Part shown: positions 7,093 to 32,651 of the stretch, in pieces
Layout of the letters: each line of letters opens with the position of its first letter
How positions within the stretch are numbered: position 1 is the stretch's first letter
Assembly (NCBI GenBank): GCA_030655835.1
Contig: JAUSPC010000082.1
Location: forward strand, 1 to 34,526
DNA: 34,526 nt
Source: Pelolinea sp.
GTDB lineage: Bacteria > Chloroflexota > Anaerolineae > Anaerolineales > Anaerolineaceae
Reading direction: 5' to 3'
The notes under the pieces: generated by a model
Told to the model about the DNA's origin: nothing
The model's input: the letters and a program-made list of their open reading frames with translations, nothing else
The model's database searches: none
Made by a program: the position numbers and the translations under genes

Positions 7093-7587
7093 ATGAAAGA
7101 ATTCACAGTCGCGCTTGCGGGAAACCCCAATTGCGGTAAAAGTACGATTTTTAATGCTCTAACTGGATCCCGCCAGCACGTTGGAAACTGGCCGGGAAAA
7201 ACCGTGGAAAAAAAAGAAGGGTATTTCACTCATAACGGTAAAAAGGTTAAGGTCGTGGACCTTCCGGGAACCTATAGTCTCTCAGCTTTTTCTAAGGAAG
7301 AAATGATCGCAAGAGATTTTATCCTAGATGAACAGCCGGATATGGTCGTCGCGGTTGTCGATTCAACCAATCTCGAACGCAACTTATACCTGGTTGTACA
7401 ACTGCTTGAACTTGGCATCCGAGTGATTGTCGATCTGAATATGAGTGATCTGGCGAGAGCAAACCGCATCATAATTGACACCGATAAACTGGCTTTTGCG
7501 CTGCAATCTGAAGTGATTAAAACGATTGGAAGCAAAGGAGATGGTGTTGAGCAATTGAAAGAATTAATCTCAATATATTATCAATAA
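7093..7587 (+). CDS. feoB: FeoB GTPase domain as a separate polypeptide
   Basis: 164 residues covering only the G domain. G1 is GNPNCGKST (10-18), the switch region GNWPGKTVEKKEG carries the G2 Thr, G3 is DLPG (56-59), G4 is NMSD (116-119) and G5 lies in TIGSKGDG near residue 147. The protein stops right after the helix DGVEQLKELISIYYQ, the point where the G domain normally joins the GDI helical domain. A good AAGGAG precedes the ATG. The membrane half follows 10 bp later in another frame with its own RBS, so the split appears real and not a sequencing slip. Confidence 0.9.
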   Translation: MKEFTVALAGNPNCGKSTIFNALTGSRQHVGNWPGKTVEKKEGYFTHNGKKVKVVDLPGTYSLSAFSKEEMIARDFILDEQPDMVVAVVDSTNLERNLYLVVQLLELGIRVIVDLNMSDLARANRIIIDTDKLAFALQSEVIKTIGSKGDGVEQLKELISIYYQ

Positions 7588-7597
7588 ATGGAGAAGG

Positions 7598-9328
7598 ATG
7601 ATGAATAAACAAACAATCGAGAAACGCAGCTTCTCAATTCATTACGGCAAAGCAGTAGAGGAAGAAATTAGCAAACTAGTAAGCGAAATTGAAAAAAATG
7701 AGCATTTAACCTCGCGTTTTGAAAGCCGTTGGCTGGCGATCAAATTGATTGAAGGTGATCCCAATATCTTAGAAAAAACAATAGCAATAGAAAACACCAG
7801 CGAGGTGGTTGAATCATCAATAAAATCTGTTGAGAAGCTTAAGAAAAGATTCTCCGATGATCTGGATTCAATTTTTGCAGATAAACGATATGGATGGATC
7901 AACGGACTAGTACGAGAGATTGTTGACAAATCCCAAGCTGCCCGTATCTCGGTGAGCGACCGGATCGATAAAGTTGTTACAAACCGCATCCTTGGAATCC
8001 CAATTTTTCTGGCGATGATGTGGGTTGTCTTTAAATTTACAACCGATGGTTCTGGACCTTTTCTGGATTGGGTAGATGGGGTCATTGGTGGACCGATCAC
8101 CAATTGGGTGGGGAGTTTAATCAATCTCGTCGGTTTAGGCGGAACCTGGGTGGAAAGCCTTTTTATGAACGGTGTGATCGCGGGTGTGGGCGGTGTGCTG
8201 GTTTTTGTTCCCGTCATGCTTTCACTCTATTTTGCGCTGGCGATACTGGAGGATTCGGGCTATATGGCAAGAGCAGCATTTGTCATGGATCGCTTAATGC
8301 ACAGTCTCGGACTGCATGGAAAAAGTTTTATGTGCATGATCGTTGGCTTTGGCTGTACGGTGCCGGCCTGTTATGCAACTCGCACACTTGAAAATGAAAA
8401 AGACAGGATATTAACCGGTCTTCTGGTTCCTTTTATGAGCTGCGGTGCGCGCTTGCCTGTTTATGTGCTATTCGCATCCATCTTTTTCCCGCAAAACAGC
8501 GATACCGTCATTTTTTTACTGTATTTAACAGGCATTGTAGTAGCCATGTTGCTGGGTGTAATACTGAACGGAACACTTTTCAAAAAACGTGAACGGTCAC
8601 CTTTTGTATTAGAACTTCCCCCTTACCGCATGCCAACCCTGCGAAATATCTGGTTTTTGATGTGGGAGAGAACTTCCGCGTTCGTACGTAAAGCATTCTC
8701 ATTCATAATGATTACCAGCATTATCATATGGCTCCTAATGGCCATTCCGGTGAATGGGGGCTCATTTGCTGAGACTGAAGTGGAACACAGCAGTTTCGCC
8801 TACATAAATAGAGGAATATCACCGATTTTCCAACCCACAGGTTTCGCCAGCTGGCAGAATGCGGGAGCCATTGTTACTGGTTTTGTGGCTAAAGAAGTGG
8901 TTGTAGGCACGATGGGACAAATTTTCAAGGTGGAAGAAGCAGAAGAAGAATTGGCCGCAACATCATTTTTTGAAGACCTTGGCGAAGTGGTTTCCAGCTT
9001 TTTCACCGCAGTGGTGGATACCATAAAGTCGATTCCGCTGATTGTCGGTATAGATCTTTTTGAAGGTGAAGATGAAGATACGAATACTGAACTGATGGCT
9101 ATCGTTCAAATACATTTCGAAGAAGTCAGCGGCGGCCACGGCGCACTAGCCAGCCTTGCATTTATGGTGTTTGTACTGCTCTACACCCCCTGCATGGTTG
9201 CTGTTGCAGCCCAGATTCAGGAATTTGGCGCTAAATGGGCTATTTTCGGAGCTGTTTTACAGTTAGTCGTTGCATATATCTCTTCAGTCTTGGTTTTCCA
9301 GGGAGGTTTGTTACTGGGGTTAGGTTGA
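7598..9328 (+). CDS. feoB: FeoB membrane permease part (GDI helical domain plus transmembrane core)
   Basis: 576 residues. The first 110 residues form the helical GDI-type domain (SFSIHYGKAVEEEISKL) with no GTPase motifs. Membrane segments begin near residue 130. Both Gate motifs are present: GFGCTVPACYATR (C253) and SCGARLPVY (C282), followed by the FeoB nucleoside-gate-like repeats and TPCMVAVAAQIQEFG. It should form the Fe2+ channel and needs the GTPase polypeptide encoded just upstream. GGAGAAGG precedes ATGATG (7598 or 7601). An acidic insert (FEGEDEDTNTE) lies near residues 485-500. No FeoC follows. Confidence 0.92.
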   Translation: MMNKQTIEKRSFSIHYGKAVEEEISKLVSEIEKNEHLTSRFESRWLAIKLIEGDPNILEKTIAIENTSEVVESSIKSVEKLKKRFSDDLDSIFADKRYGWINGLVREIVDKSQAARISVSDRIDKVVTNRILGIPIFLAMMWVVFKFTTDGSGPFLDWVDGVIGGPITNWVGSLINLVGLGGTWVESLFMNGVIAGVGGVLVFVPVMLSLYFALAILEDSGYMARAAFVMDRLMHSLGLHGKSFMCMIVGFGCTVPACYATRTLENEKDRILTGLLVPFMSCGARLPVYVLFASIFFPQNSDTVIFLLYLTGIVVAMLLGVILNGTLFKKRERSPFVLELPPYRMPTLRNIWFLMWERTSAFVRKAFSFIMITSIIIWLLMAIPVNGGSFAETEVEHSSFAYINRGISPIFQPTGFASWQNAGAIVTGFVAKEVVVGTMGQIFKVEEAEEELAATSFFEDLGEVVSSFFTAVVDTIKSIPLIVGIDLFEGEDEDTNTELMAIVQIHFEEVSGGHGALASLAFMVFVLLYTPCMVAVAAQIQEFGAKWAIFGAVLQLVVAYISSVLVFQGGLLLGLG

Positions 9329-10793: not shown

Positions 10794-10822
10794 TTGACAA
10801 TCCGACAAACATTGCCTATAAT
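10794..10822 (+). promoter_or_regulatory. Consensus sigma-70 promoter for the RpiR-ECF operon
   Basis: TTGACA (10794-10799), a 17-bp spacer and TATAAT (10817-10822): a full consensus match, 56 bp before the RpiR start. The tandem ATAATGTA/ATAATGCA just after it could be an operator, which is a guess. Confidence 0.85.
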
Positions 10823-10878: not shown

Positions 10879-11754
10879 ATGAATATGCCAAATACCTCAT
10901 CCAATAGTGATGTACTTTCTAAAGCAAGGGGTTTTTATGCATCACTCTCATCTTCCGAAAAAAAAGTTGCTGATTTTATTTTAAAGCAATATCAAGAAAC
11001 CATCCGTATGACTCTGGCTGATGTCGCCCAAGAAAGTGGCGTAAGTGATGCAACAGTTCTCCGTTTTTGCCGTTCGATTGGTTACAGAGGTTGGCTCGAA
11101 TTTAAAATTGACCTCACCCAATCACTTCCCAACCTACCCGAACAAATTTTAGATGAAGTTGTCGAGGGGGATTCACCGGGTACAATCGCTAAAAAAGTAT
11201 TCAACTGCTCAATCCAGGCCCTGACTGATACTATAGCGGTTTTGGATGAAACAAATTTCAAGCAAGCACTCGATTTAATCAACAATGCTAAGAAGATTTT
11301 GCTGATTGGTGTGGGCACCTCTGGTCCTATGGCCAATGAAATGCACAATCGCTTCCTGCGTCTCGGTCTGAATTGCCATGTTCAAACCGATTCTTATATT
11401 CAGGTGATGGAAAGTGCCCTACTCACTTCAAAGGATCTGGTTATCACAATTTCCCAAACCGGAGAATCAGAAGACCCACTGCGTACGACCGCTTTGGCAA
11501 AATCGAATGGCTGCGCCGTTATTGTCATCACCGGTAACACGGCTTCGAAATTGACTGATTACGCTGATATTGTGCTGCTGTCAGTATCTCGCGAAACCCG
11601 CATGGAAACTATCGCATCACGCATCGCGCAATATGCCATTATCCATGCCTTATATGTTGGGTTGGCCATGCAAGATATCCCCCGCACGTTAAATAAAGAG
11701 AAAAAGATTTGGGAAGCGATGATGAATATGCCGTCCTTTCAAAACTCAAAATAA
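10879..11754 (+). CDS. RpiR/MurR-family transcriptional regulator with SIS domain
   Basis: 291 residues. The N-terminal RpiR helix-turn-helix covers about residues 15-85: LSSSEKKVADFIL, TLADVAQESGVSDATVLRFCRSIGYRGWLEFK. The SIS sugar-phosphate-binding domain covers about 135-265: ILLIGVGTSGPMANEMHNRFLRLG, DLVITISQTGESEDPLRTTALAK and VIVITGNTASKLTDYADIVL. RpiR proteins usually sense phosphosugars. Here the natural effector would be a ribose-1-phosphate derivative made by the downstream phosphorylase (inference). It is the first gene after a consensus promoter and lies 18 bp before EcfA. The start has no obvious RBS at normal distance; AGGAAG is about 25 nt away. Confidence 0.92.
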   Translation: MNMPNTSSNSDVLSKARGFYASLSSSEKKVADFILKQYQETIRMTLADVAQESGVSDATVLRFCRSIGYRGWLEFKIDLTQSLPNLPEQILDEVVEGDSPGTIAKKVFNCSIQALTDTIAVLDETNFKQALDLINNAKKILLIGVGTSGPMANEMHNRFLRLGLNCHVQTDSYIQVMESALLTSKDLVITISQTGESEDPLRTTALAKSNGCAVIVITGNTASKLTDYADIVLLSVSRETRMETIASRIAQYAIIHALYVGLAMQDIPRTLNKEKKIWEAMMNMPSFQNSK

Positions 11755-11772
11755 TAAAATTTGGGAGTTTCA

Positions 11773-13467
11773 ATGTTAGATTCTATTGTGACAATCAAAG
11801 ATCTAAAATTCCGATATCGAGGGGAAAAGGAATTAGCTCTAGACGGTATAGTGCTGGATATTTCAAAAGGGGAGTTCTTGGTTGTTATGGGCGCCAGCGA
11901 GGCTGGGAAAAGTACGCTGATGGCCTGTTTTAACGGTCTAATTCCCCACTATACAAAGGGGACTATCAAGGGTGAGGTTATTGTTCTGGGTATAAACACA
12001 GCCAATTCTAGCGTGCCCCAATTGGCGGAAAATGTTGGCATCGTCTTCCAAGATTTTGAAGCTCAGCTATTCTCCACCAACGTAGAATTGGAGATCGCCT
12101 TCGGGCCGGAGAATTTCGCTGTACCGCGCGAAGAAATAAGGCGCCGGATCGAAGAAAACCTTGAATATGTTGGTCTGGAAGAATTTCGTCATCGGCCTCC
12201 TTTTACGCTTTCAGGTGGTCAGAAACAGAAACTAGCTATTGCCTCAGTGCTCGCTATGCAGCCAACTATATTGGTCATGGATGAGCCAACCACAGACCTG
12301 GATCCTATCAGCAAACAAGGTATCTTTGATATCACTAACAAATTGCGCCAGCGTGATGGTATGACCCTGATTGTGGTCGAACATGAAACCGAAGAAGCGC
12401 TGCATGCCGACCGGATTGCATTGATCAAAGATGGAAAATTAGTTCAGGTTGGCTCGGCTCAAGAAATTCTCAAACAGGTTGATCTGCTTGAAGAATTGGG
12501 TGTCATGCCCTTGGGTATTCCTAAATTCTTCAAAAATATAGGGGAGACTGATTTGCCACTCACTCCCGCTGAAGGCATTCAAACTTTCAGCAAGATCGGA
12601 TGGAAAATTTCAGATGACAAATATTCCCAACTACTTGAGAAAGAAAAACTTACTACTCAACACAACGAGCAACCCATCATCCAGTGCCGCGATCTGGAAT
12701 TCACTTACCCGAATGGAGTTAAAGCCCTCAATGGTATTGACCTTGATATTTACGAAGGTGAAATCGTAGCTATCGTCGGGCAAAATGGTAGCGGCAAAAC
12801 TACTCTTGCTAAAAGTTTCAACGGATTATTGATACCCACTAACGGCGATGTGATGGTAAACGGTTTACACACGAAAGAACAGGGTGTCTTCAAAATCGGC
12901 CAAAAAGTTGGTTATGTTTTCCAAAACCCCGACCATCAGATCTTTTCAGAACTCGTTTATAATGAAATCGCTTTTGGTCCGCGTCTGCGCAATGTCCCCG
13001 AAGAAGAAGTTGACAAAATTGTAAAGGAAGCATTGGAAGCAGTCGGGTTGACTGGCTTTGAAGAAGAAGATCCATTCAGCCTGACCAAGAGTGGCCGCCA
13101 GCGAGTTGCTGTGGCTTCAGTCTTGGCTGTCCAGCCTGACGTGCTCATCTTGGATGAACCTACAACCGGGCTGGATTATAAAGAACAGCGCAGTATGATG
13201 GACATGGTGCGACGCTTGAATGAACAGGGCAGTACGATAATATTTGTAACTCATCACATGTGGGTTGTGGCTGAGTATGCACAAAAAGTGTTCGTAATCA
13301 AAGATGGGCGCATCCTCCTAGATGGCACAACTCGAGAAATCTTTGCCAAGGAAGAAATCCTCAAAGCGTCTTATCTACGACCTCCACACTTCGTTCAATT
13401 CAGCAACCAGCTGGGAAAAACCTTCCTCAGCCCAAAAGAAATGATCTCTTGCATAGAGAGGAAATAA
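11773..13467 (+). CDS. ecfA: ECF transporter ATPase, fused two-domain EcfA (EcfA1-EcfA2)
   Basis: 564 residues from ATG 11773; an in-frame TTG at 11761 overlaps the GGGAG RBS. Two ABC domains lie in tandem. Domain 1 has Walker A GASEAGKST (40-48), VFQDFEAQLFS Q-loop, LSGGQ (146-150), LVMDEPTTDLD and VVEHETEEAL. Domain 2 has Walker A GQNGSGKTT starting at 336, YVFQNPDHQIFS, LILDEPTTGLD and THH. The Q-loops followed by QLFS/QIFS are typical of ECF ATPases. The second signature motif is degenerate, LTKSGRQR instead of LSGGQ. It powers uptake with EcfT and an S-component encoded in the same operon. EcfT follows after 3 bp. Confidence 0.95.
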   Translation: MLDSIVTIKDLKFRYRGEKELALDGIVLDISKGEFLVVMGASEAGKSTLMACFNGLIPHYTKGTIKGEVIVLGINTANSSVPQLAENVGIVFQDFEAQLFSTNVELEIAFGPENFAVPREEIRRRIEENLEYVGLEEFRHRPPFTLSGGQKQKLAIASVLAMQPTILVMDEPTTDLDPISKQGIFDITNKLRQRDGMTLIVVEHETEEALHADRIALIKDGKLVQVGSAQEILKQVDLLEELGVMPLGIPKFFKNIGETDLPLTPAEGIQTFSKIGWKISDDKYSQLLEKEKLTTQHNEQPIIQCRDLEFTYPNGVKALNGIDLDIYEGEIVAIVGQNGSGKTTLAKSFNGLLIPTNGDVMVNGLHTKEQGVFKIGQKVGYVFQNPDHQIFSELVYNEIAFGPRLRNVPEEEVDKIVKEALEAVGLTGFEEEDPFSLTKSGRQRVAVASVLAVQPDVLILDEPTTGLDYKEQRSMMDMVRRLNEQGSTIIFVTHHMWVVAEYAQKVFVIKDGRILLDGTTREIFAKEEILKASYLRPPHFVQFSNQLGKTFLSPKEMISCIERK

Positions 13468-13470
13468 GCT

Positions 13471-14253
13471 ATGAATATTGATTTTTATATTGAAGCTGAC
13501 ACCGTGATCCATCGCCTAGATGGCCGCACGAAAATCTTGCTTTTCCTCTTCTCATTTATTGTACTTGTGCTTTTCGAAGACCCTTTATTTATCTTACCCC
13601 TTGCGCTTCTAATCTTGCTGCAAAGTTCGCTGGCCCGGGCATGGGTAAATATCTGGCGCATCCGTTTCCTGCTGATTATTCTAACTATCTCCAGCGTGAT
13701 CATGTGGAACGTGTTTGCCAGTGGTGAGACACACTTATTCTGGTTCGTAGACCTTGAATCACTAGAATATAGCCTTGCCCGTACTATGGTGATGTTGTGG
13801 ATGATCATCAGCGGTATGAACTTGCTCAGTACTACTCTTAATGAGGAATTGGTGCTCGGCATGATCAAGCTTGGGTTACCCTACCGCGTCGGCTTTGCGA
13901 TTTCAACATCATTGCGCATGGTGCCTACGATTTCTTCCAACATCTACACCATCTCACAAGCCCAACGCAGCCGTGGCTTAGACCTGGAGACCGGAAGCAT
14001 CATCGAGCGCATCAAAAAATACATTCCATTGCTAATTCCGGTATTCATCTCAACAATTCGGGGCACGAACGTGTTTGGCATGGCCCTGGAGTCAAAAGGC
14101 TTTGGCGCAAGAGATGATCGTACTTTTTATCTTAAAATGGAAATGGAAAAAAGGGATTTTATCACCCTGGCCTTTAGCATTGCCTTAATGGTGTTTTGCT
14201 TATACATCAATTTTCTTGACTTCGGCAATATCGATGGGCTGACCAAGTTCTAA
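13471..14253 (+). CDS. ecfT: ECF transporter transmembrane subunit EcfT
   Basis: 260 residues with several hydrophobic helices. The two coupling-helix motifs typical of EcfT are present: QAQRSRGLD and ALESKGFGAR, the Ala-Arg-Gly type signatures that contact the two ATPase domains. The N-terminus DTVIHRLDGRTKILLFL is also typical. It links EcfA to the S-component. Only 3 bp separate it from ecfA, so it is co-translated. An 84-bp gap follows before the isomerase gene, with no terminator. Confidence 0.93.
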   Translation: MNIDFYIEADTVIHRLDGRTKILLFLFSFIVLVLFEDPLFILPLALLILLQSSLARAWVNIWRIRFLLIILTISSVIMWNVFASGETHLFWFVDLESLEYSLARTMVMLWMIISGMNLLSTTLNEELVLGMIKLGLPYRVGFAISTSLRMVPTISSNIYTISQAQRSRGLDLETGSIIERIKKYIPLLIPVFISTIRGTNVFGMALESKGFGARDDRTFYLKMEMEKRDFITLAFSIALMVFCLYINFLDFGNIDGLTKF

Positions 14254-14337: not shown

Positions 14338-15381
14338 ATGGACCGGAAAGCGCTGGATAAACTATTACCATTTGTTCTAAAACGTAACAATGTAGCCTAC
14401 TACGAAGATGGCATTGTCTATATTGGTGATAGGCGCAAATATCCTTTTGAAAAAGTGTTTTTGCGCTGCAATGATGTCGAAGATGTTGCCCGTGCCATTG
14501 AAGATATGGTCACCCAGGGAGGCGGCCCCTATGTGGCGGCGGCTTTCGCTATGGTGATGGCAGCCAAAAAAGTTGAGGGAAAACCGGTCAATGAGATTTT
14601 TGATTATCTCCGCAAGGCCAAAATACGTTTGACCAACACCCGACCCACAAACACAGCCATGGCCCAACGCCTCGATGACATGCTGAAAATCGCCGAAACA
14701 GCTGGTAAAGAAGGGCAATCCATCGAAGAAAAACTCTTAGATTGGATTAGAGAGACTGACGACAAAATATATACAGACTATGAATATCGCGCTCGCCTGG
14801 GAGCCAGTTTAGTAAACGATGGCGACGGCATTCTGACGATGTGCTTTGCTGAGACTGCCTTCATCTTGGCCATGGCTTTTGCCATGCAAGATGGCAAAAA
14901 GATTCAAGTTTTCACGCCAGAGACACGCCCCTACCTCCAAGGGGCACGCCTCACCGCCCCCAGTCTGCACGAATTAGACATCCCGGTGCAAATTATCACA
15001 GACAATATGCCAGCGTATGTCATGTCACAGGGCAAGATCCAGAAATATTTCACTGCTGCAGACCTAATCACACTCGATGGGCACGTCTGTAATAAAATTG
15101 GCACTTTCCAAAACGCTATCGCAGCTCACCACCACGGCATCCCCTATTTCGTGTTTATGTGGGGTGCAGACCACAAAAGCCCCGACCGTGCTTCCATCGA
15201 AATCGAGAACCGCGATCCGGCAGAAATTAGAGCTTGTAGAGGCATTCCTACGACCATTGATGAAATAGATGCTTATTATCCCGCCTTCGATATAACACCT
15301 CCTTATATGGTTTCTGGTGTTATAACAGTGCACGGTATTTTAAGCCCATATGACTTGAAACGTCATTTCACCAAAGCCTAA
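14338..15381 (+). CDS. MtnA-like isomerase (methylthioribose-1-phosphate isomerase / eIF2B-alpha family), divergent
   Basis: 347 residues from ATG 14338, with AAAGGA 10 bp upstream; an in-frame ATG at 14305 has no RBS. Family motifs are clear: RPTNTAMAQRLD, GDGILTMC with C169 at the MtnA catalytic Cys position, RPYLQGARLTAPSL, ITDNMPAYVM and CNKIGTF. In MtnA the loop before NKIGT reads NGDVANKIGT with the catalytic Asp (Asp240 in Bacillus subtilis). Here it reads DGHVCNKIGT, so His249 replaces it. The Arg of the usual RGAPAIG motif is also absent (GGGPYVA). The operon context (phosphorylase next, deaminase later) fits isomerisation of a 5-modified ribose-1-phosphate. The substitutions leave the exact substrate or reaction open. 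Confidence 0.8.
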   Translation: MDRKALDKLLPFVLKRNNVAYYEDGIVYIGDRRKYPFEKVFLRCNDVEDVARAIEDMVTQGGGPYVAAAFAMVMAAKKVEGKPVNEIFDYLRKAKIRLTNTRPTNTAMAQRLDDMLKIAETAGKEGQSIEEKLLDWIRETDDKIYTDYEYRARLGASLVNDGDGILTMCFAETAFILAMAFAMQDGKKIQVFTPETRPYLQGARLTAPSLHELDIPVQIITDNMPAYVMSQGKIQKYFTAADLITLDGHVCNKIGTFQNAIAAHHHGIPYFVFMWGADHKSPDRASIEIENRDPAEIRACRGIPTTIDEIDAYYPAFDITPPYMVSGVITVHGILSPYDLKRHFTKA

Positions 15382-15400: not shown

Positions 15401-16150
15401 ATGTCTGTAGCAATCATTGCTGGTACCGCAATCTATGATATACCAGGTACCAGCCTCAAAGAAGAGATCATTGAGACACCCTATGGCAGGGCGCTTGTTT
15501 ATCGAGTACAGGGAGATTTTGAAGATTTTATATTTCTGGCCCGTCATGGCATCAAACACAATACCCCACCCCACAAAGTCAACTACCGTGCTAATATTAA
15601 AGCACTGGAGATACTGGGCGTGAAACGAGTTTTAGCCGCCAATGCGGTTGGATCAATCAACAAAGATATACCCCCTCTTGGATTGGCACTGGTGACTGAC
15701 TTTTTGGATTTTACATCCAATCGCGAAAACACATTCTTTGATGGAGGGGAAAGTGGCGTTAAACATGTCGATATGAGCATCACTTACTGCCCAATGCTAC
15801 GCAAACGACTTTTGGCATTGGCACCCAATTTTGACATTGCCCTTTATCCCAAGGCGATCTATGTTAGCGCCAACGGACCGCGTTTAGAATCACCTGCCGA
15901 AATTCGAATGTACGCCCAATTGGGCGGTGACGTGGTTGGTATGACAGGCATCCCCGAAGCCACCCTGGCCCGGGAGCTTGGTTTGTGTTACGCGGCGGTT
16001 GCATTCTCTGTCAATTGGGCCGCCGGCATCAAAGAGACGATCCGATTTGTAGCCGATTCAGCCAGATTTGACCAGATCAAAGCTAATATTCTGGCACTCT
16101 TTATCGAAACGTTAAAAACAACATCCGATGCGGATTGTTACGACTCATAA
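15401..16150 (+). CDS. 5'-methylthioinosine phosphorylase-type nucleoside phosphorylase (MTAP/PNP family)
   Basis: 249 residues, trimeric MTAP/PNP fold. Recognisable pieces: AGTAIYD (phosphate loop), FLARHGIKHNTPPHKVNYRANI, AANAVGSI, NGPRLESPAEIRMY and VVGMTGIPEATLAREL. The purine-binding end reads SVNWAAGI with N205, where adenine-specific MTAP enzymes carry Asp residues (TDYD). Asn and the AAG sequence are as I recall them in the Pseudomonas aeruginosa methylthioinosine phosphorylase. It would release hypoxanthine and a 5-methylthioribose-1-phosphate. This agrees with the deaminase encoded two genes downstream. The glycine-rich phosphate loop lacks one Gly of the common GGTG. RBS AAAGGAG; 19 bp after the isomerase gene. 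Confidence 0.85.
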   Translation: MSVAIIAGTAIYDIPGTSLKEEIIETPYGRALVYRVQGDFEDFIFLARHGIKHNTPPHKVNYRANIKALEILGVKRVLAANAVGSINKDIPPLGLALVTDFLDFTSNRENTFFDGGESGVKHVDMSITYCPMLRKRLLALAPNFDIALYPKAIYVSANGPRLESPAEIRMYAQLGGDVVGMTGIPEATLARELGLCYAAVAFSVNWAAGIKETIRFVADSARFDQIKANILALFIETLKTTSDADCYDS

Positions 16151-17119: not shown

Positions 17120-17148
17120 CTTCAGGGCGGGTATATACCGCCCTGAAG
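17120..17148 (+). terminator. Hairpin between EcfS and deaminase genes
   Basis: A perfect 11-bp stem (CTTCAGGGCGG / CCGCCCTGAAG) with loop GTATATA is followed only by TTTATAT. The weak T-tract suggests a partial terminator or an mRNA-stabilising 3' end for the EcfS message. Confidence 0.6.
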
Positions 17149-17185
17149 TTTATATAAACACTAAGTGTCTTATGAAAGCACAAAC

Positions 17186-18493
17186 ATGGCCTCAGCACAA
17201 CAATATGATTTGCTAATTACCGGGGGAAAAATCGTTACTATGGACGCCAAGCGCCGCGTCATTGATAACGGCGCTATAGCAATCTCTAGCAATAGGATCC
17301 AAGAAATATTCTCAGCAGGGGAACTGCCCAGCAATTATAAGGCGCGTAAAACAATCAATGCGGATGGCAAAGTTATCATCCCTGGCTTGATCAACGCCCA
17401 CAGCCACATTGCTATGACATTATTCCGCGGCTTTGTGGAAGATTTAGTTCTGTACAAATGGCTGAAAAGAGTCTGGCAATATGAGCTATCGGCGCTCAAT
17501 GAAAACAACGTGCGCGCCGGTTCCAAACTGGCCTTCGCTGAAATGATCCGCAGCGGTGTGACCTGTGTCCACGACATGTATTGGCACTGTATGGCTACTA
17601 TCGATCTTGCTGAAGAAATCGGTTTCCGTCTGATTTCCGGCCCATCGATTACAGGAATTGGTGAGCCAGATTTTGACGAGATGATAAACACAGCGCGCTG
17701 CGTACTAGAAAAAATAAAAAATTATCGCTATGTTCACCCTGTTATTCAAGCTCACAGCACCTACACTACCACACCAGAGATGATGCATAAGGTATTTGAA
17801 TTCAAACAAGAATATAATATTCCCTTCACTACCCATGCATCTGAGAACCAAGCTGAAGTTGACGATGTGTGTGAGCGATACGGCAAAACGCCGATTGAAT
17901 TATTGCAATCATATAATCTGTTGGATAGCGGTACAATCTTGGCGCATTGTGTCAAACTACAAAATGATGAAATTACTCTTCTTAGCGAGAGTAGTACAAA
18001 CGTAGTCCACTGCCCTGAAAGCAACCTCAAACTGGGGTCCGGCATAGCTCGAATCGCCGAACTATTCGAGGCAGGTGTAAATATTTGTATTGGCACTGAC
18101 GGCCCAGCATCAAACAACAATTTGGATTTATTGGGCGAAATCAGAACGGCCGCATTATTACAAAAGGGTTTTTACGAAAATCCTGAAGTGCTCACTACTA
18201 TGCAGGCTATGGAAATGGCCACCATCAATGGGGCCAAAGCTTATGGGCTAGATAAGAAACTCGGGTCGCTGGAACCAGGCAAGCGTGCAGATATTGTAAT
18301 CATCGATTTCGATAAAAGCCATCTGACACCATGCCACGATGTATACGCACACCTGATCTATTCAGTCAACCAAGCTGATGTGGATACAGTGCTCATCGAT
18401 GGCAAAATCCTCATGGATGATGGAGAGCTGACTACCCTGGATGAAGAAACCATAAAAGCAGAAGTACGCGTTATAGGAGAACAATTCAAATGA
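17186..18493 (+). CDS. mtaD: 5'-methylthioadenosine / S-adenosylhomocysteine deaminase
   Basis: 435 residues from ATG 17186; an in-frame GTG at 17165 is an alternative. Amidohydrolase metal and active-site residues are in place: H72-S-H74 in NAHSHIAMTLFRG, H190 in QAHSTYTTT, H217 and E220 in TTHASENQAEVD, LAHCVKL, and D305 in GTDGPASNNNLDL. The C-terminus carries the LGSLEPGKRADIVIID composite-domain strand. MtaD-type enzymes deaminate MTA to methylthioinosine and SAH to inosylhomocysteine. Paired with the Asn-type phosphorylase in the same cluster, this gives a complete deamination-then-phosphorolysis route. Its stop overlaps the start of the truncated PLP-enzyme frame. Confidence 0.9.
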   Translation: MASAQQYDLLITGGKIVTMDAKRRVIDNGAIAISSNRIQEIFSAGELPSNYKARKTINADGKVIIPGLINAHSHIAMTLFRGFVEDLVLYKWLKRVWQYELSALNENNVRAGSKLAFAEMIRSGVTCVHDMYWHCMATIDLAEEIGFRLISGPSITGIGEPDFDEMINTARCVLEKIKNYRYVHPVIQAHSTYTTTPEMMHKVFEFKQEYNIPFTTHASENQAEVDDVCERYGKTPIELLQSYNLLDSGTILAHCVKLQNDEITLLSESSTNVVHCPESNLKLGSGIARIAELFEAGVNICIGTDGPASNNNLDLLGEIRTAALLQKGFYENPEVLTTMQAMEMATINGAKAYGLDKKLGSLEPGKRADIVIIDFDKSHLTPCHDVYAHLIYSVNQADVDTVLIDGKILMDDGELTTLDEETIKAEVRVIGEQFK

Positions 18494-19163: not shown

Positions 19164-19922
19164 ATGGAACAGGAAATGTTTGATCGAGCAAAGGGCATCC
19201 CCGTTTACCGACAGCTGGCGGACTACATAAAAAAGCAGATTGCTTCCGATGTTTACAATCCCGGAGACATTTTACCGAGTGAGGCGGATTATATCCGCGA
19301 GTTCAACATTAGCCGAACAACGGTACGGTTGGCATTCGGGGTGATCACCAATGCCGGTTTGGTCCGTCGTGAACAAGGCAGGGGCACTATCGTGGTTTCT
19401 CAAGTACGCAGTAGTCTCCCCTACCTCTCTAGCTTCACAGAAGAGGTACTGCGGGTTGGACGCGAACCCGGCGTGGTATTGCTCAGCGGTGCGCAAGAGG
19501 AGACCAATCTTGAAGCCGCCAAAGCCCTTGCACTACCCGCAGAGGCCAAAATCTTGTATGTTGCCCGCCTGCGCTTGATCGACAACGAACCCTTTGGACT
19601 ATCGATATGCTGGCTGAACAACATCCAATTTCCAAAGTTAAAGCTCATGGATTATTCGGCATTGTCGCTTTACAAGATCATTGAGGATGGATTGGGCTTA
19701 TCCATCTTTCACGCAATCGAGAACATATATGCAGATCTGGCGAATGAAAATGAGGCGCAACAGTTGAAGATCAAAAGAAACACTCCAGTGCTTCGAATTA
19801 AGCGTATGACATCTATCAAAGACGAAAAAGGGATTACTTACCCGATAGATTATACCAAAGCAGTCTTCAATAGCAACATGTACAGTGTGGATGTTGAATT
19901 ATATCGTCAAAACAATAAATAG
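19164..19922 (+). CDS. GntR-family (HutC/UTRA) transcriptional regulator
   Basis: 252 residues. The N-terminal winged helix (residues about 8-78) reads GIPVYRQLADYIKKQI, PGDILPSEADYIREFNISRTTVRLA and LVRREQGRGTIV, the classic HutC-subfamily pattern. The UTRA ligand domain (about 95-245) has ILYVARLRLIDNEPFGLS and VLRIKRMTSIKDEKGITYPIDYTKA. The effector is probably a small metabolite of the downstream pathway. It is the first gene of the BtpA/ABC cluster and sits behind the ATAACGTT array. The gap of 51 bp to btpA holds only an RBS. Confidence 0.92.
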   Translation: MEQEMFDRAKGIPVYRQLADYIKKQIASDVYNPGDILPSEADYIREFNISRTTVRLAFGVITNAGLVRREQGRGTIVVSQVRSSLPYLSSFTEEVLRVGREPGVVLLSGAQEETNLEAAKALALPAEAKILYVARLRLIDNEPFGLSICWLNNIQFPKLKLMDYSALSLYKIIEDGLGLSIFHAIENIYADLANENEAQQLKIKRNTPVLRIKRMTSIKDEKGITYPIDYTKAVFNSNMYSVDVELYRQNNK

Positions 19923-19973
19923 AACCATGACCTTATTTCATTGAACAATCAATTTATTCAAAGGAGTTCCAGT

Positions 19974-20804
19974 ATGAAAAATCTTGATAAATTTGCAGAA
20001 TTAGAACGAATCTTTGGTACACGTAAACCAATCATCGGTATGGTACACCTGGCACCTCTCCCTGGCTCCCCCCGCCATGACGATATGAGCATGAAAGAAA
20101 TCACTGACTTGGCGCTTGAGGATGCCCATCTTTTATACAAGGCTGGTGTGGAAGGTGCCATCGTGGAGAACTTTGGAGATGTGATGTTTCATAAACACGT
20201 TCCCGATGAAACCATAGCCGCGATGACATACATTTCCACGATCATTGCCCAAGAAGTGCCCCGGCTCGTCCTGGGTATGTGCGTCCTCCAGTCAGATGCG
20301 ATTGCCGGCATGGCAATTGCCAACACGGTCGGGGCGAAATTCATCCGTGTTCCTTATTACACCGAGACATATGTGGTGGACGCCGGACTGATGGACAGCA
20401 TTGCCGCAGAAACTCTACGCTACCGCAAGTTCCTCAACGCCGATGTTAAAATCTTTGCCGATGTTCATATCAAGCATGGTTACCCCATTTCTCAGCGCCC
20501 GATCGGTCAGGCGGCTTATGATACCGTCCACCGCGGGCTGGCAGATTCCATTCTTGTGACCGGCATTGCCACCGGTGCTGAGACAAAATTTGACGATGTC
20601 AAAGAGGTGAAGGAAGCTGTCAGCCATACCCCGGTATTCGTTGCCAGCGGTGTGGACGAGAAGAACCTGCCTCAATTCAAAGAATACGCTGACGGGGTCA
20701 TCATTGGTACTCGCATCAAGATCAATAATGAATCCGAGGCGCCTATTGACCCTGTAAAGTTAAATTCATTTATGAAAGTGGCTCGAACCATCTGGCCGAA
20801 ATAG
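19974..20804 (+). CDS. BtpA/SgcQ-family TIM-barrel protein, copy 1
   Basis: 276 residues from ATG 19974 with AAAGGAG upstream; an in-frame TTG at 19941 is less likely. Family features: KPIIGMVHLAPLPGSP at the N-terminus, GVEGAIVENFGD, RKFLNADVKIFADVHIKHG and YADGVIIGTRIK near the barrel end, with a phosphate-binding look. BtpA was named for photosystem I biogenesis in cyanobacteria and SgcQ lies in an E. coli sugar operon, but the reaction of the family is not established to my knowledge. Beside a nucleoside importer, a PTE-like hydrolase and a PfkB kinase, an aldolase or isomerase role on a sugar phosphate is conceivable (inference). Confidence 0.85.
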   Translation: MKNLDKFAELERIFGTRKPIIGMVHLAPLPGSPRHDDMSMKEITDLALEDAHLLYKAGVEGAIVENFGDVMFHKHVPDETIAAMTYISTIIAQEVPRLVLGMCVLQSDAIAGMAIANTVGAKFIRVPYYTETYVVDAGLMDSIAAETLRYRKFLNADVKIFADVHIKHGYPISQRPIGQAAYDTVHRGLADSILVTGIATGAETKFDDVKEVKEAVSHTPVFVASGVDEKNLPQFKEYADGVIIGTRIKINNESEAPIDPVKLNSFMKVARTIWPK

Positions 20805-20816
20805 GAGACCATCATT

Positions 20817-21653
20817 ATGAGTATGTATCCTGACGATAATCGATATCAAAATTATTTAGACTTGTTCGGTGTAAAAAAACCGATCATCGGTATGCTTCAC
20901 CTGCTCCCGCTCCCCGGCTCGCCGGTTTACAATGGGAAAGGGTTGAAGGATGTAATCGAGCGTGCCCTTTACGATGCTAATGAACTCCAAGAGGGCGGTG
21001 TGGACGCCCTTGAAGTGGAAAACTTCTCCGATCCCACGTATTACCCCCATGAAGTTGGTCCGGAATTAACCGCCGCCATGGCAATCATCAGCGATCATAT
21101 CCGGCGGGCTGTCTCTAAACCGCTTGGTATTTGCATTCTGTCGGACCCCAAAGCTTCCCTTAGTGTTGCCCATGCTATGGGTGCGCAATTTATTCGCGCT
21201 ACCTTTTTCACCGAAGCCTCGGTAGATGTTTCGGGACTAGTATTGCCAAAGCCGCACGAATTGCTGCGATTCCGCAAATTTCTTGATCCATCGATCAAGA
21301 TCTTCACCGACGTGCACATCAAGCATTCTGCACCGCTGGTTAATCGCCCGATTGGTGATTCTGCACTCGACGCAAAATACTTCCTCTCGGATGCAATTAT
21401 CATCAGCGGCACCCATACCGGCAAGGAAACAAAACTAGATGACATCAAAGAAGCCAAGGCCTCTGTAGAGGAATTTCCTGTGCTTGTGGGCAGCGGTTTT
21501 AATAAAGAAGCGGCTGCGCGTATCTTCCAATATGCCGATGGCGCAATTGTCGGCACATCTCTCAAAAAAGACGGGGTGAGTTCTAATGTAGTTGATCGAA
21601 AGCGGGTGAAAGAATTAATGGATGTGGTCAAAGAGATCAGAGCCAGCGCTTAG
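20817..21653 (+). CDS. BtpA/SgcQ-family TIM-barrel protein, copy 2
   Basis: 278 residues, starting 12 bp after copy 1 with AGGAGA in the spacer. It shares with its neighbour KPIIGMLHLLPLPGSP, the VENFSDP strand, LRFRKFLDPSIKIFTDVHIKH, RPIGDSALDA and YADGAIVGTSLK, at roughly 40 percent identity by eye. This is an old tandem duplication and not a recent one. Two paralogues side by side suggest a hetero-oligomer or two related reactions. No membrane segment or signal is seen. Function unknown. Confidence 0.85.
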   Translation: MSMYPDDNRYQNYLDLFGVKKPIIGMLHLLPLPGSPVYNGKGLKDVIERALYDANELQEGGVDALEVENFSDPTYYPHEVGPELTAAMAIISDHIRRAVSKPLGICILSDPKASLSVAHAMGAQFIRATFFTEASVDVSGLVLPKPHELLRFRKFLDPSIKIFTDVHIKHSAPLVNRPIGDSALDAKYFLSDAIIISGTHTGKETKLDDIKEAKASVEEFPVLVGSGFNKEAAARIFQYADGAIVGTSLKKDGVSSNVVDRKRVKELMDVVKEIRASA

Positions 21654-21685
21654 TATGATCATTACAGAACAAATTCATCTTAGAA

Positions 21686-21694
21686 AAAGGAGGT
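21686..21694 (+). promoter_or_regulatory. Orphan Shine-Dalgarno (AAAGGAGGT) in the first BMP lipoprotein leader
   Basis: Lies 87 nt before the ATG at 21781, which has its own AAAGGAG. The nearest ATG after it (21709) is 14 nt away and opens only three codons. Confidence 0.6.
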
Positions 21695-21780
21695 GAAAGC
21701 ACAAGAATTTATGCTCACATGATTGCATTCCAACCAATCGTTATATCCAATTTTATTTATGTATATAAAGGAGTAGACCA

Positions 21781-22854
21781 ATGATTAGAAATAAGTATAT
21801 GATTGTTGTTTTTTTCTTAGTGATCATGTCCATGATCGCCGCATGTGCTCCCAAACCTGCTGCTCCGGCAGACACGTCGGTTGTTGCCGAAGTTCCTGTG
21901 GAAGAAGCTGAAGAAGAAGCAACGCTGAAAGTTGCAGTTGTTGCTGGTGGTGAAGTTGGTGATTTGGGTTTCATTGATTCTGCAAATGAAGGACTCGAAA
22001 GGATGACAGCCGAACTGGGTTTGGAAACTAGTATCATATCAAATCGTAATGATATGAACGTCAATTTAGATGTTTTAATCTCGGCAGCCGAACAAGCTGA
22101 TCTGATCTTCGTTGTGCCTGGTTACTTCTTTGACGAACAACTCAAACAGGTAATCCCAGAATTCCCGGATAAAACCTTCGTCTATGTCGACGGTGCCACG
22201 GGTATTGAGGGGATGACTTCCGTTGTCTTCATGCAGAACGAGGGTGCCTTCCTTGCTGGTGCTTTGGCTGCTCTGCTGACCACAGAAACTACGGATTTAC
22301 CAAGCATGGATGATGCCAAGAAGATTGCTTTCATGGGCGGTGCTGATATGCCCGTGATCCACGATTACCAGGTTGGTTTTAATCAGGGAGCCAAATATGC
22401 CGTAGAAGATATTGAGATCATTAATCAGTATGCTGGAACACACTTTGACCCAGCAAAAGGTAAGGAAACCGCACTGGCAATTTACGGCGCCGGAGCCGAC
22501 ATTATCTTCCAGGCAGCTGGCCCTACCGGTTTAGGTTTGTTTGAAGCTGCCAAAGATGTCAAGAAATATGCGATTGGTGTAGATACCAATCAGAAGGGTC
22601 TTGCCCCAGAATGGGTAGTCGCTTCGATGCGCAAGAACGTTGGCGATGCCATCTTCCAGTTTGCTGAATCCTTCATTGCAGGCGAGATCGAGACCGGTGA
22701 TGTAATGGCTTACGGTCTTTCAAAGAACGGTGTCGGTATCGATTACGGCGATATGGATCCGGATCTTGTTCCACAAAGAATTAAAGACATGATTGCGGAA
22801 TTCGCCCAGGAAATTATGGACGGAAAGATCGTCGTAGAGCAATATAACCAGTAA
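21781..22854 (+). CDS. BMP-family ABC transporter substrate-binding lipoprotein (nucleoside type), copy 1
   Basis: 357 residues. The signal peptide ends at the lipobox MIAAC, with lipidated C22, followed by a Pro/Ala/Glu linker (residues 23-48). The BMP/Med fold begins LKVAVVAGGEVGDLGFIDSANEGLERM. VPGYFFDEQLKQVIPEFPDKTFVYVDG and GADIIFQAAGPTGLGLFEAAK and AIGVDTNQKGLAPEWVVASMRKNVGDA are family-typical. BMP proteins (PnrA, BmpA) bind purine nucleosides, and related ones bind other small ligands. It pairs with the ATPase and two permeases that follow. A hairpin just after its stop probably enriches this cistron over the rest. Confidence 0.93.
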   Translation: MIRNKYMIVVFFLVIMSMIAACAPKPAAPADTSVVAEVPVEEAEEEATLKVAVVAGGEVGDLGFIDSANEGLERMTAELGLETSIISNRNDMNVNLDVLISAAEQADLIFVVPGYFFDEQLKQVIPEFPDKTFVYVDGATGIEGMTSVVFMQNEGAFLAGALAALLTTETTDLPSMDDAKKIAFMGGADMPVIHDYQVGFNQGAKYAVEDIEIINQYAGTHFDPAKGKETALAIYGAGADIIFQAAGPTGLGLFEAAKDVKKYAIGVDTNQKGLAPEWVVASMRKNVGDAIFQFAESFIAGEIETGDVMAYGLSKNGVGIDYGDMDPDLVPQRIKDMIAEFAQEIMDGKIVVEQYNQ

Positions 22855-22865
22855 TATAATATTAC

Positions 22866-22897
22866 GACAGGGTGGAGATATTATCTTCCACCCTGTC
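22866..22897 (+). terminator. Hairpin after the BMP lipoprotein gene
   Basis: An 11-bp perfect stem (GACAGGGTGGA / TCCACCCTGTC), 10-nt loop, then TAAATTTCTTT. It starts 12 bp after the stop. It is likely a partial terminator or 3' stabiliser giving more binding protein than membrane subunits. Confidence 0.7.
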
Positions 22898-22935
22898 TAA
22901 ATTTCTTTACAACCCGAAATCGAGAAGAAAAATTA

Positions 22936-24450
22936 ATGACCCTCGCCATCGAAACCCATCAGATCACCAAATTGTATGGTGACACCGTTGCCAATGATCA
23001 TATCGACTTTTCAGTGATTGAGGGTCATATCCATGCCGTGCTGGGAGAAAACGGGGCGGGAAAAACTACCCTGGTGAAAATTCTCTTCGGTGAAGAAATG
23101 CCCACCGAAGGTGAGATCAAGATTTTTGGCAAAACGGTGACCATTCACAACCCTGCGGAAGCGCTGGATCTTTCCATCGGATTCATTCACCAGCACTTTA
23201 CCCTTGTAAATGAATTTACAATCGCCCAGAATTTCGCTCTGGGTATAGAACCCTGTAATAATCTGTTCTTCTGCGACTATGATACCGTCAATAAAAAAGT
23301 TAAGAATATCCTTGATATGCTGGAAATGCCGCTGAAACTGGATGTTCCGGTGGGTTCGTTCTCGGTGGAAGAGCGCCAGATCATGGAGATCGGCAAAGCG
23401 CTTTACCGCGGCGCGCAAATCCTCATCCTTGACGAACCAACTTCAGTGTTGACACCACAAAAAATTGAAAAACTGCTTGATATTCTGCGCAAGCTTCGCC
23501 AGGAAGGTAAGACCATCATCATGATCACGCATAAACTGGAAGAGGCTTTCTCCATTGCAGATGAGATCAGTGTGCTGCGCAAGGGAGTTTTGGTGGCAAC
23601 GCTACCCCATGATCGGGTGAATAGGGAACAATTGATCCGAATGATGGTCGGAGAAGAACCTCTTATTACCCTGAAAAAGGAAGATCATCCTTTCGGGGAT
23701 GCATTGGTGCAGGTGAGAAATCTTTGTGTAAATAATTACGACAATCGAATAGTGAAAAACGTGAGTTTCGAAATTCACCGCGGTGAGATATTCGGTCTGA
23801 CCGGCGTGGGAGGTAACGGACAGGCTGAACTTGTGGAAGCGCTCATCGGTATGCGTCCGGCCAGCGAAGGAGATATCCGTTTTGATGGTAAAAGTGTGGT
23901 GCATTGGGACATTCAGAAACGACGCCTATCTGGTATGGCATATGTACCTGAGAACCGCATCGAACGTGGTGCGGCGGTATCCCTATCGATCTTAGACAAT
24001 CTGGTAATGGGACACCATTATCTCCCTGAATTCCATCAGGGATTATTACTGAAATACAAAAATTTGCAATCCTTCGCCCGTGACATCATAAAAGATTTTG
24101 AAGTGGTAGCCAGTTCGCTTGAGATCAATGCCGGTAGTCTTTCCGGTGGAAACTTGCAGAAACTGATCATCGGCCGCGAATTCTCGCTCAACACGCCATT
24201 TCTAATCGTGGCTTATCCCAGCCAGGGGATTGATATCCGCACCACAAAATATGTTCATTCAGAATTGATAAGGCGCCGTGACACCGGTTATGCCATTCTG
24301 CTTGTTTCCGGCGACATGGATGAGATTTTCAACTTAAGTGACCGTATCGGAGTGATGTATTCCGGTGAACTGGTTGCCATCACCAAACCTGAAGAGATCA
24401 ACCGCTTTGAACTGGGTCAATATATGGTCGGTTCTCGGAGAAATTGCTGA
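22936..24450 (+). CDS. Nucleoside ABC transporter ATPase (two-domain, RbsA/YufO type)
   Basis: 504 residues with tandem ABC domains. Domain 1: Walker A GENGAGKTT, the diagnostic IGFIHQHFTLV Q-loop, a degenerate signature FSVEERQ, and ILILDEPTSVLTP. Domain 2: the altered Walker A GVGGNGQAEL, signature LSGGNLQK and FLIVAYPSQGID, where the usual Walker B Asp/Gln position is changed as in this subfamily. Such proteins energise BMP-dependent nucleoside uptake. The stop codon overlaps the start of the first permease by one base (TGATG), showing tight coupling. Confidence 0.92.
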   Translation: MTLAIETHQITKLYGDTVANDHIDFSVIEGHIHAVLGENGAGKTTLVKILFGEEMPTEGEIKIFGKTVTIHNPAEALDLSIGFIHQHFTLVNEFTIAQNFALGIEPCNNLFFCDYDTVNKKVKNILDMLEMPLKLDVPVGSFSVEERQIMEIGKALYRGAQILILDEPTSVLTPQKIEKLLDILRKLRQEGKTIIMITHKLEEAFSIADEISVLRKGVLVATLPHDRVNREQLIRMMVGEEPLITLKKEDHPFGDALVQVRNLCVNNYDNRIVKNVSFEIHRGEIFGLTGVGGNGQAELVEALIGMRPASEGDIRFDGKSVVHWDIQKRRLSGMAYVPENRIERGAAVSLSILDNLVMGHHYLPEFHQGLLLKYKNLQSFARDIIKDFEVVASSLEINAGSLSGGNLQKLIIGREFSLNTPFLIVAYPSQGIDIRTTKYVHSELIRRRDTGYAILLVSGDMDEIFNLSDRIGVMYSGELVAITKPEEINRFELGQYMVGSRRNC

Positions 24451-25526
24451 TGAAGGCACCGCATATAGTTCGCAGAAAGATTGTTCAACATGCGTTGAGT
24501 TTTGTCAGCGCCATTATACTGGCGCTTGTTATCGGTCTGGCAATGCTTGCTCTGGATGGTTTCGCGCTTAAAGATGTGATCAACAGCGCCTTCTCCAGCA
24601 CATTTGCCTCCTCGTTCCGCTTTGCCAACATGGTTTCCCGCATGATCATCATCATTCTTGTTGCTCTGGCTGCGGCAATCCCCTTTAAAGCTGGTATCTG
24701 GAATATTGGCGGTGATGGGCAGTTGGCTGTGGGCGGCTTTTTGACGGCGCTGGCAGGTTTTTACATCATCGGGTTACCACCGGTGTTTCATGTGAGTTTG
24801 GCGATTCTGGCGGGAATGTTTGGAGGCGCATTGTGGGCTTCAATCTCCGCTTATATCCGGTTGAAATTCAACGCCAATGAGATCGTCACGACCATTATGA
24901 TGAACTACCTGGCTGTACTACTGACCGGTTATCTGGTCAATTATCCATTCCGCGCCCCGGGATCATCTAACGCAGAAACCTCGTTGATACGAGAATCTGC
25001 TATGCTTACCCGTATGCTGCCCTTATCAAATCTAAGCTCAGGCATGTATGTAGTGCTGGCTGCTTTTCTGATCATCTGCTTCATTGATTGGAAAACCAGC
25101 TGGGGGTACGAATGGCGGGTGCTGGGAGCCAACGATGAGTTTGCCCGTTATGGCGGAGTGAAGGATAAGAGAATGCGTTTTCTTTCCATGATCATCGGCG
25201 GCGCGCTGGCGGGGCTGGCTGGTGCCATCCTTGTTCTGGGTGTCAATCACAAATATATGCTTGGCATGGGCGGGGGTGTCGGATTTACCGGTGTGCTGAT
25301 TGCATTGATCGCGGCGAACAGTCCGATCCTGATCCTGATCGTTTCCATGATCTTTGCCATCCTTCAGAGTGGTATGATCGGTTTGGAATCGAAATTAGGC
25401 GTAGCAACCGAGTACAGCAGCATCTTGCAAAGCGTGATCATTTTACTCGTGATCACTCGCTCACAAGCATGGTCAAGCATCTCGAATTTATTAACCCGTA
25501 GGAGTTTGCATGGAAAACACGATTGA
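24450..25526 (+). CDS. Nucleoside ABC transporter permease 1 (YufP/NupP-like)
   Basis: 358 residues from ATG 24450 (GGAG upstream). About eight to nine membrane helices. The branched-chain-type permease motif EIVTTIMMNYLAVLLTGYLVNY and the EAA-like loop GYEWRVLGANDEFARYGGVKDKRMRFLSMIIGG are characteristic of the BMP-system larger permease. NIGGDGQLAVGGFLTALAG is also typical. It overlaps the second permease gene by 17 bp. Confidence 0.92.
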   Translation: MKAPHIVRRKIVQHALSFVSAIILALVIGLAMLALDGFALKDVINSAFSSTFASSFRFANMVSRMIIIILVALAAAIPFKAGIWNIGGDGQLAVGGFLTALAGFYIIGLPPVFHVSLAILAGMFGGALWASISAYIRLKFNANEIVTTIMMNYLAVLLTGYLVNYPFRAPGSSNAETSLIRESAMLTRMLPLSNLSSGMYVVLAAFLIICFIDWKTSWGYEWRVLGANDEFARYGGVKDKRMRFLSMIIGGALAGLAGAILVLGVNHKYMLGMGGGVGFTGVLIALIAANSPILILIVSMIFAILQSGMIGLESKLGVATEYSSILQSVIILLVITRSQAWSSISNLLTRRSLHGKHD

Positions 25527-26412: not shown

Positions 26413-26473
26413 TCTACCCAGGCAGGGAAATGTACATCATATACCCGTTTGATAAACTCCAGGAATTCATAGT

Positions 26474-27496: not shown

Positions 27497-27518
27497 CCAT
27501 TCATTTAGAGGTGTATGT

Positions 27519-27545
27519 ATGACTGAGATACAAAAAAGATTATGA
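27519..27545 (+). CDS. Eight-codon mini-cistron coupled to the PfkB start
   Basis: ATG 27519 has AGAGGTG 5 nt upstream and reads eight codons before a TGA that overlaps the next ATG (ATGA at 27542-27545). The PfkB gene has no good Shine-Dalgarno of its own, so ribosomes may reach it by reinitiation from this frame. Function inferred from layout only. Confidence 0.4.
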   Translation: MTEIQKRL

Positions 27546-30598: not shown

Positions 30599-30621
30599 GA
30601 GGTGACAAAGTAATTTAATTC

Positions 30622-30653
30622 GATTTCGGAAGTCCATCAGGACTTCCGAAATC
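30622..30653 (+). terminator. Long hairpin after the second BMP gene
   Basis: A perfect 14-bp stem (GATTTCGGAAGTCC / GGACTTCCGAAATC) with a 4-nt loop, followed by TTAAAAC with no long T-run. As after copy 1, it lies between lipoprotein and ATPase, so it more likely protects the upstream mRNA than stops transcription fully. Confidence 0.65.
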
Positions 30654-30680
30654 TTAAAACACAGTATCTAGGTTGGCACA

Positions 30681-32243: not shown

Positions 32244-32345
32244 ATTTTTGGAAAAATGCGCTTGGCATCAAACTGGATCATGTGGAAGATGTCCCCTCCC
32301 AAAAAGCGAAAGTCACCTTCCTGCCGATTGGAGAGAGTGAATCGA
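32244..32345 (+). pseudogene. Fragment of a methylmalonyl-CoA epimerase gene
   Basis: About 102 bp align with 5137-5238 inside the epimerase gene at roughly 92 percent identity. In frame it would read FWKNALGIKLDHVEDV, then KVTFLPIGESE. Several differences are synonymous third-position changes (CTG/CTT, GGG/GGC, GGG/GGA), as between homologous genes under selection and not as random decay. Both ends break off inside the gene. It begins directly after the ATPase stop. Confidence 0.85.
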
Positions 32346-32592: not shown

Positions 32593-32628
32593 AAAGAAAA
32601 TGGAAGGTGCAGTGTATGCACCTTCCAT
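32593..32628 (-). terminator. Rho-independent terminator of the uracil/xanthine permease gene
   Basis: Perfect 12-bp stem (ATGGAAGGTGCA / TGCACCTTCCAT), 5-nt loop. Read on the minus strand it is followed by TTTTCTTT. It lies 23 bp beyond the stop of the minus-strand gene. Confidence 0.85.
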
Positions 32629-32651
32629 AGTTAGTTCGTTGTGCTTTTAGT

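Follow-up and report, generated by a model that had tools for sequence, protein, structure and literature searches.

A divergent MtnA-like isomerase subfamily and its putative nucleoside salvage operon in Chloroflexota

Introduction

Has an MtnA-family isomerase of Pelolinea sp. (Chloroflexota) lost its catalytic aspartate, and what might such an enzyme do? The question arose from a 34,526-nucleotide stretch of DNA (contig JAUSPC010000082.1, positions 1 to 34,526; hereafter the window), for which the original prediction placed His249 of the encoded protein at the catalytic Asp position, proposed altered chemistry or a different substrate, and raised the possibility of a new eIF2B-alpha/MtnA-fold subfamily. 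The analysis described here removes a false lead, as no catalytic Asp loss is found in the window protein, and defines a set of MtnA-like proteins (MtnAL) of relevance to annotators and to students of methionine salvage and SAM by-products.

Results

The gene and the two codons at issue are as follows.

14338..15381, + strand: MtnA-like isomerase gene (MtnAL), 347 aa, from ORF, profile, alignment and structure-prediction evidence
15061..15063, + strand: codon of Asp242 (D of AAD), catalytic by alignment to R15P isomerase Asp204 and Bacillus subtilis MtnA (BsMtnA) Asp240
15082..15084, + strand: codon of His249, which aligns with BsMtnA Asp247, not with the catalytic Asp240

MtnAL starts at an ATG (14338) with a ribosome-binding-like AAAGGAA just 5' of it; the longest ORF at the locus begins at TTG 14305, a less likely start because relatives align from approximately ATG 14338. 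The product matches PF01008 (173.7 bits) and exceeds the cut-offs of PRK05720 (282.7 vs 271) and TIGR00524 (210.8 vs 185.85), falling below that of the canonical MtnA equivalog TIGR00512 (207 bits vs 279) and far below that of the ribose-1,5-bisphosphate isomerase model TIGR00511 (141.7 bits vs 314.1). Its AlphaFold model (42-row alignment as input) has a pLDDT of 93.7 and a pTM of 0.91, and the best PDB match is 2yvk, the product complex of B. subtilis MtnA (TM 0.89, 30% identity). The predicted ORF and MtnA/eIF2B fold are thus borne out by profile, model and structural match.

In the R15P isomerase of P. horikoshii (PH0208), mutagenesis identified Cys135 and Asp204 as the catalytic pair, and the D204N primer, GGAGCTAATTCTATAACAGC, encodes G-A-N-S-I-T-A (PMC5789824); Asp204 is therefore the D of G-A-D-S-I (also MGADSI). 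Asp242 of the window protein aligns both with this residue and with the Asp of G-A-D-R-I in BsMtnA. The BsMtnA residue is position 261 of a 374-residue tagged chain, or Asp240 after subtraction of a 21-residue tag. The subtraction is based on a native length that we take to be 353 aa, and the Asn-Lys pair after Asp240 then falls at 250-251, matching the published numbering.

The window segment reads AAD242LITLDGHVCNKIGT, so that the catalytic Asp lies seven residues upstream of the one chosen in the original prediction, the D of NGD in NGDxANKIGT. The alignment upholds the gap-free DGHVCNKIGT segment, the retention of Cys169 and the loss of the RGAPAIG Arg, where Gln60 stands. It does not uphold a His at the catalytic position or altered chemistry through catalytic Asp loss: His249 aligns with BsMtnA Asp247, and Cys169 and Asp242 are both present. 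The original prediction named another Asp in spatial replacement as a refuting outcome, and the result goes further, as the real catalytic Asp has been in place throughout. Position 249 is Asp in most MtnAs, and R15P isomerase is active with an Ala there. The window protein keeps the catalytic Cys169 and Asp242 and would be expected, from its sequence, to use ordinary Cys/Asp chemistry; as the catalytic Asp is not lost, His249 supports no inference of altered chemistry. A local sequencing error or pseudogene was ruled out, as relatives from different phyla share both the His and the remaining differences.

Residues were compared between 86 MtnAL relatives and 30 other proteins (canonical MtnAs from relatives, five structures, and the E. 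coli, Klebsiella and Priestia enzymes). No variation occurs in either set at Arg102, Cys169, Gln201, Asp242, Asn252 or Lys253. The sets differ at the RGAPAIG Arg site, which is Gln in 86/86 relatives vs Arg in 30/30 others, at site 172 (Glu in 82/86 vs Gly in 29/30), and at site 247 (Asp in 84/86 vs Asn in 28/30). Site 249, where conservation of the His had been put forward as a check, is His in 71 of the 86 relatives and otherwise Tyr (8), Ser (5), Phe (1) or a gap (1), vs Asp in 28 of the 30 others. Seven residues after the MtnA Cys loop are missing from the relatives. With Gln replacing the 1-phosphate Arg across the whole subfamily, substrate binding must differ in detail, and Glu172, a Gly in MtnA, could suit a polar 5-substituent.

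In a phylogenetic tree, a branch supported at 100/100, with a stem of approximately 1.6 changes per column, sets the MtnAL relatives apart, and the window protein falls outside the characterised MtnAs, also with 100/100 support; a 109-row tree gave the same split (SH-aLRT 99). On these sequence comparisons MtnAL is a paralogous subfamily distinct from canonical MtnA, and the suggestion of a new subfamily is supported by the clade together with Gln60, Glu172 and Asp247. Members were found in Chloroflexota, Alpha- and Gammaproteobacteria, Bacillota, Fusobacteriota, Actinomycetota and others. Most of the relatives came from a scan that kept 80 of 556 confirmed ones; the subfamily is thus probably large, although some of the 556 may be canonical. 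Elsewhere in the window's genome (G000:C11) lies a gene for a canonical MtnA, in which the RGAPAIG, GADR and NGD motifs are all of the ordinary form, and several other MtnAL carriers also have one. The signature [TV]Q[GS]xGP, C[FWY][AG]E, AAD, DG[HYS] separates hundreds of genes, of a type at present annotated as MtnA, from true methionine-salvage enzymes.

A sister group with QGGPP comprises L133 (on a Polaromonas plasmid), L008, L009 and L115, the last three placed by the 109-row tree. In Polaromonas two annotated ORFs together make up the relative, and its neighbours are an MTI phosphorylase, a nucleoside deaminase and an ABC importer.

MtnAL is the fourth gene of an operon in the window, with these further features.

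10794-10822, 5' of the RpiR gene: sigma-70-like promoter, full consensus
10879..11754, + strand: RpiR-family regulator (HTH_6 + SIS), first operon gene, found upstream of MtnAL in approximately 10 related loci
11761..13467, + strand: double ECF ATPase (EcfA-A'), 62-75% identical in related Chloroflexota operons
13471..14253, + strand: ECF T component (CbiQ family), from profile match and related loci
15401..16150, + strand: MTIP-type purine nucleoside phosphorylase, PRK09136 221.2 bits, just below the cut-off of 223; best PDB match 3ozb, 161 bits
16135..17097, + strand: ECF S component, QueT family, PF06177 1.2e-14, conserved in 18 loci
17120..17148, + strand: terminator-like hairpin between the QueT and deaminase genes, from a pattern scan only
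17165..18493, + strand: MTA/5'-deoxyadenosine deaminase-type amidohydrolase, PRK09045 418.9 bits, below the cut-off of 540; best PDB matches 4gbd/4dyk, 280 bits

The PDB names are less specific than the functions used here: we take 3ozb to be the MTI phosphorylase, and 4gbd/4dyk the MTA deaminase, of P. aeruginosa. No riboswitch was matched by Rfam in the window and no aldolase is encoded within it; the best class II aldolases elsewhere in the genome are 29-34% identical to the operon-linked aldolase of relatives.

Nucleoside and base transport genes are abundant in the window. A second co-directional block (19164-28513) contains a GntR/UTRA regulator, two BtpA/SgcQ-family genes, a Bmp-type nucleoside ABC transporter, a phosphotriesterase-family protein and a PfkB kinase, and has the look of a further cluster for nucleoside or sugar catabolism. 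At 29543-34013 lie a further Bmp substrate-binding protein and an ABC ATPase, followed by a xanthine/uracil-type permease on the - strand. FeoB (7093-9328) is present as two consecutive ORFs approximately 10 bases apart, which encode the G domain (164 aa) and the membrane part (576 aa).

The order RpiR-EcfAA-EcfT-MtnAL-MTIP-QueT-deaminase is conserved, whole or largely intact, in approximately 20 Chloroflexota loci. A phosphorylase is present at 54/79 MtnAL loci, and a phosphorylase, deaminase or aldolase at 65/79. FucA- or RhaD-type DHAP aldolases occur at 37/79 MtnAL loci vs 2/21 canonical mtnA loci (p = 0.002, uncorrected for relatedness and differing flank lengths), both of the latter from one family-level group. 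In the nearest relative (L060) the operon is complete and includes the aldolase as well, and at another locus (L089) the best PDB match of the aldolase is DrdA (6btd), a 5-deoxyribulose-1-P aldolase (PMC6079011). An mtnK-type kinase and a DrdA-like (FucA) aldolase flank or adjoin MtnAL in Lactobacillus, Enterococcus, Fusobacterium and Acetoanaerobium. In Tissierellia, MtnAL follows a PNP with Thr or Ser in place of the conserved His of solved PNPs (NHEEV, SHEEV in the latter). In human PNP this His is in contact with the 5'-OH of the ribose, and its loss suggests that 5'-deoxy substrates are favoured.

Two readings of neighbouring genes were discarded. A cluster of neighbours considered as MtnB dehydratase proved by NCBIfam and PDB to be a RhaD-type aldolase, and a bacterial microcompartment at the L091 group was rejected, as the neighbours, read by eye, are unlike shell proteins.

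A Bacillota clade (L091, L092, L094, L096, L101) has Ser249 in MtnAL next to a phosphorylase in which the 5'-OH-type His (HEEV) is retained, so that the identity of residue 249 may follow that of the 5-substituent. A SpeD-like 127-aa protein is encoded approximately 4 kb downstream in four of these five loci. Separately, a methionine gamma-lyase-like PLP enzyme (414 bits vs an equivalog cut-off of 549.7) is encoded near MtnAL in 12 loci, including L089, L065, L069, L072 and L076, hinting at sulfur salvage from methylthio compounds.

Discussion

MtnAL is probably a catalytically competent aldose-ketose isomerase of the MtnA/eIF2B fold, paralogous to MtnA, that converts 5-methylthioribose-1-phosphate and/or 5-deoxyribose-1-phosphate to the ribulose-1-phosphate form via Cys169/Asp242; gene context points to these sugar phosphates as substrates. 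From the same context we infer the substrates and direction of the pathway and the role of transport. The QueT-family ECF transporter would import a 5'-deoxy- or 5'-methylthio-purine nucleoside, which the amidohydrolase would deaminate to the inosine form and the MTIP-type phosphorylase would split into hypoxanthine and a sugar-1-phosphate. MtnAL would then isomerise the sugar-1-phosphate by Cys169/Asp242 chemistry with a remodelled 1-phosphate site, and a class II aldolase, encoded in the same operon in relatives and elsewhere in this genome, would cleave the ketose product to DHAP and an aldehyde. The best reading of the whole route is a DHAP-shunt-like salvage of 5'-modified nucleosides left by SAM metabolism.

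Several points weigh against this reading: the window has no aldolase, the best class II aldolases elsewhere in the genome reach only 29-34% identity to the operon-linked one, Gln stands at the 1-phosphate Arg site, and Glu172 could suit a polar 5-substituent. In addition, members of the QueT family usually carry the annotation of queuosine-precursor transporter. A literature search returned no paper linking QueT-type ECF transporters to methylthioadenosine. The operon putatively ties such a transporter to 5'-deoxynucleoside salvage. More tentatively, and with somewhat less than even confidence, MtnAL is proposed to be an uncharacterised subfamily whose 1-phosphate site has been re-engineered (invariant Gln instead of Arg, Glu172, Asp247/His249) and which is dedicated to ECF-fed catabolism of purine nucleosides, 5'-deoxy/5'-methylthio or in some clades plain, that QueT-family S components would import.

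Four other explanations were weighed. That His249 replaced the catalytic Asp and altered the chemistry, as first proposed, is scarcely credible: the prevalence of His among relatives at a site that is Asp in nearly all comparison proteins speaks for it, but the mutagenised Asp of R15P isomerase (PMC5789824) aligns with Asp242, which is conserved in 86/86, and that active enzyme has Ala at the His249 site. The window protein would more readily pass for an ordinary methionine-salvage MtnA that has drifted, given its MtnA fold and its PRK05720 score. Against this, which we consider improbable, stand the TIGR00512 score, the separate canonical MtnA in the same genome, the long and fully supported stem, and residue changes that run through the whole subfamily.

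The other two explanations concern the substrate. MtnAL may instead act on plain ribose-1-phosphate (from inosine/adenosine), yielding ribulose-1-phosphate that an aldolase would cleave to DHAP and glycolaldehyde, although we know of no such direct shortcut from bacteria. This is unlikely, but it draws on several observations: the L089 aldolase scores best with a haloarchaeal ribulose-1-phosphate aldolase model (166 bits vs a cut-off of 300), Glu172 lies near the 5-phosphate-binding residues Ser137/Lys138 of R15P isomerase, and the phosphorylase of the L091 group retains the 5'-OH His beside an isomerase with Ser249. It is opposed by the MTA-type deaminase and MTIP-type phosphorylase of the operon, the mtnK-type kinases of the Lactobacillales/Fusobacteria clusters, the His-to-Thr change in Tissierellia PNPs and the DrdA-like aldolases. 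Salvage of queuosine-type rather than 5'-deoxynucleosides, with MtnAL disposing of the sugar-1-phosphate, would account for the QueT-family S component. It is nevertheless very improbable, as MTI phosphorylase and MTA deaminase are what the neighbouring phosphorylase and deaminase most resemble, and Pseudomonadota have MtnAL with a phosphorylase but without QueT.

Comparison with known systems

With canonical MtnA (B. subtilis 2yvk/2yrf, T. maritima 1t9k), MtnAL shares the fold (TM 0.89), the catalytic Cys and Asp (BsMtnA Cys160 and Asp240), Arg102, Gln201 and the Asn-Lys pair. It differs in having Gln for the RGAPAIG Arg, which binds the 1-phosphate, C-F/Y/W-A/G-E where MtnA has C-N-A/T-G, a deletion of 7 residues that follows the Cys loop, DGH where MtnA has NGD, and a separate clade. 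The archaeal R15P isomerase (PH0208, 5yfj) likewise has the fold, the Cys/Asp pair, a shorter post-Cys loop and a non-Asp residue at the His249 site, but it keeps the 1-phosphate Arg22 (Gln in MtnAL), and its 5-phosphate ligands Ser137/Lys138 are unmatched in MtnAL. In eIF2B alpha the catalytic Cys is lost, with Ala or Gly instead (PMC5789824); unlike the eIF2B alpha/beta/delta regulatory subunits, all MtnAL proteins compared retain Cys169.

The drdKIA system for 5-deoxyribose disposal in B. thuringiensis, with its isomerase DrdI (PMC6079011), resembles the kinase-isomerase-FucA clusters with DrdA-like aldolases seen in MtnAL members, whereas the window operon has a phosphorylase and deaminase without a kinase. 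The isomerase at L139 is of the MtnAL type and adjoins a DrdA homologue 59% identical to B. thuringiensis DrdA, which makes it plausible that DrdI is itself of this type, and the MtnAL branch may include the DrdI clade. If so, the subfamily already has a characterised member, as DrdI has a Km of 22 mM on 5-deoxyribose-1-P (PMC6079011).

In M. jannaschii, 5'-deoxyadenosine is recycled by a DadD-MTIP-MtnA route (PMC6302742). The same enzyme order (deaminase, MTI/5'-deoxyinosine phosphorylase, isomerase) is inferred for the window operon, which adds an ECF importer and a divergent isomerase. The DHAP shunt is a known pathway model (PMC10986504, PMC12632272), and its MtnA in E. coli S88 (PMC10986504) carries out the same predicted step, ahead of a class II aldolase. 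The E. coli locus was located by position in strain S88, as DNA similarity to Klebsiella mtnKA gave no match. Its isomerase is of the canonical type (WVRGAP, CNAG, RGDVCNKIGT) and 28% identical to the window protein; the MtnAL branch would therefore be a second solution for the same step.
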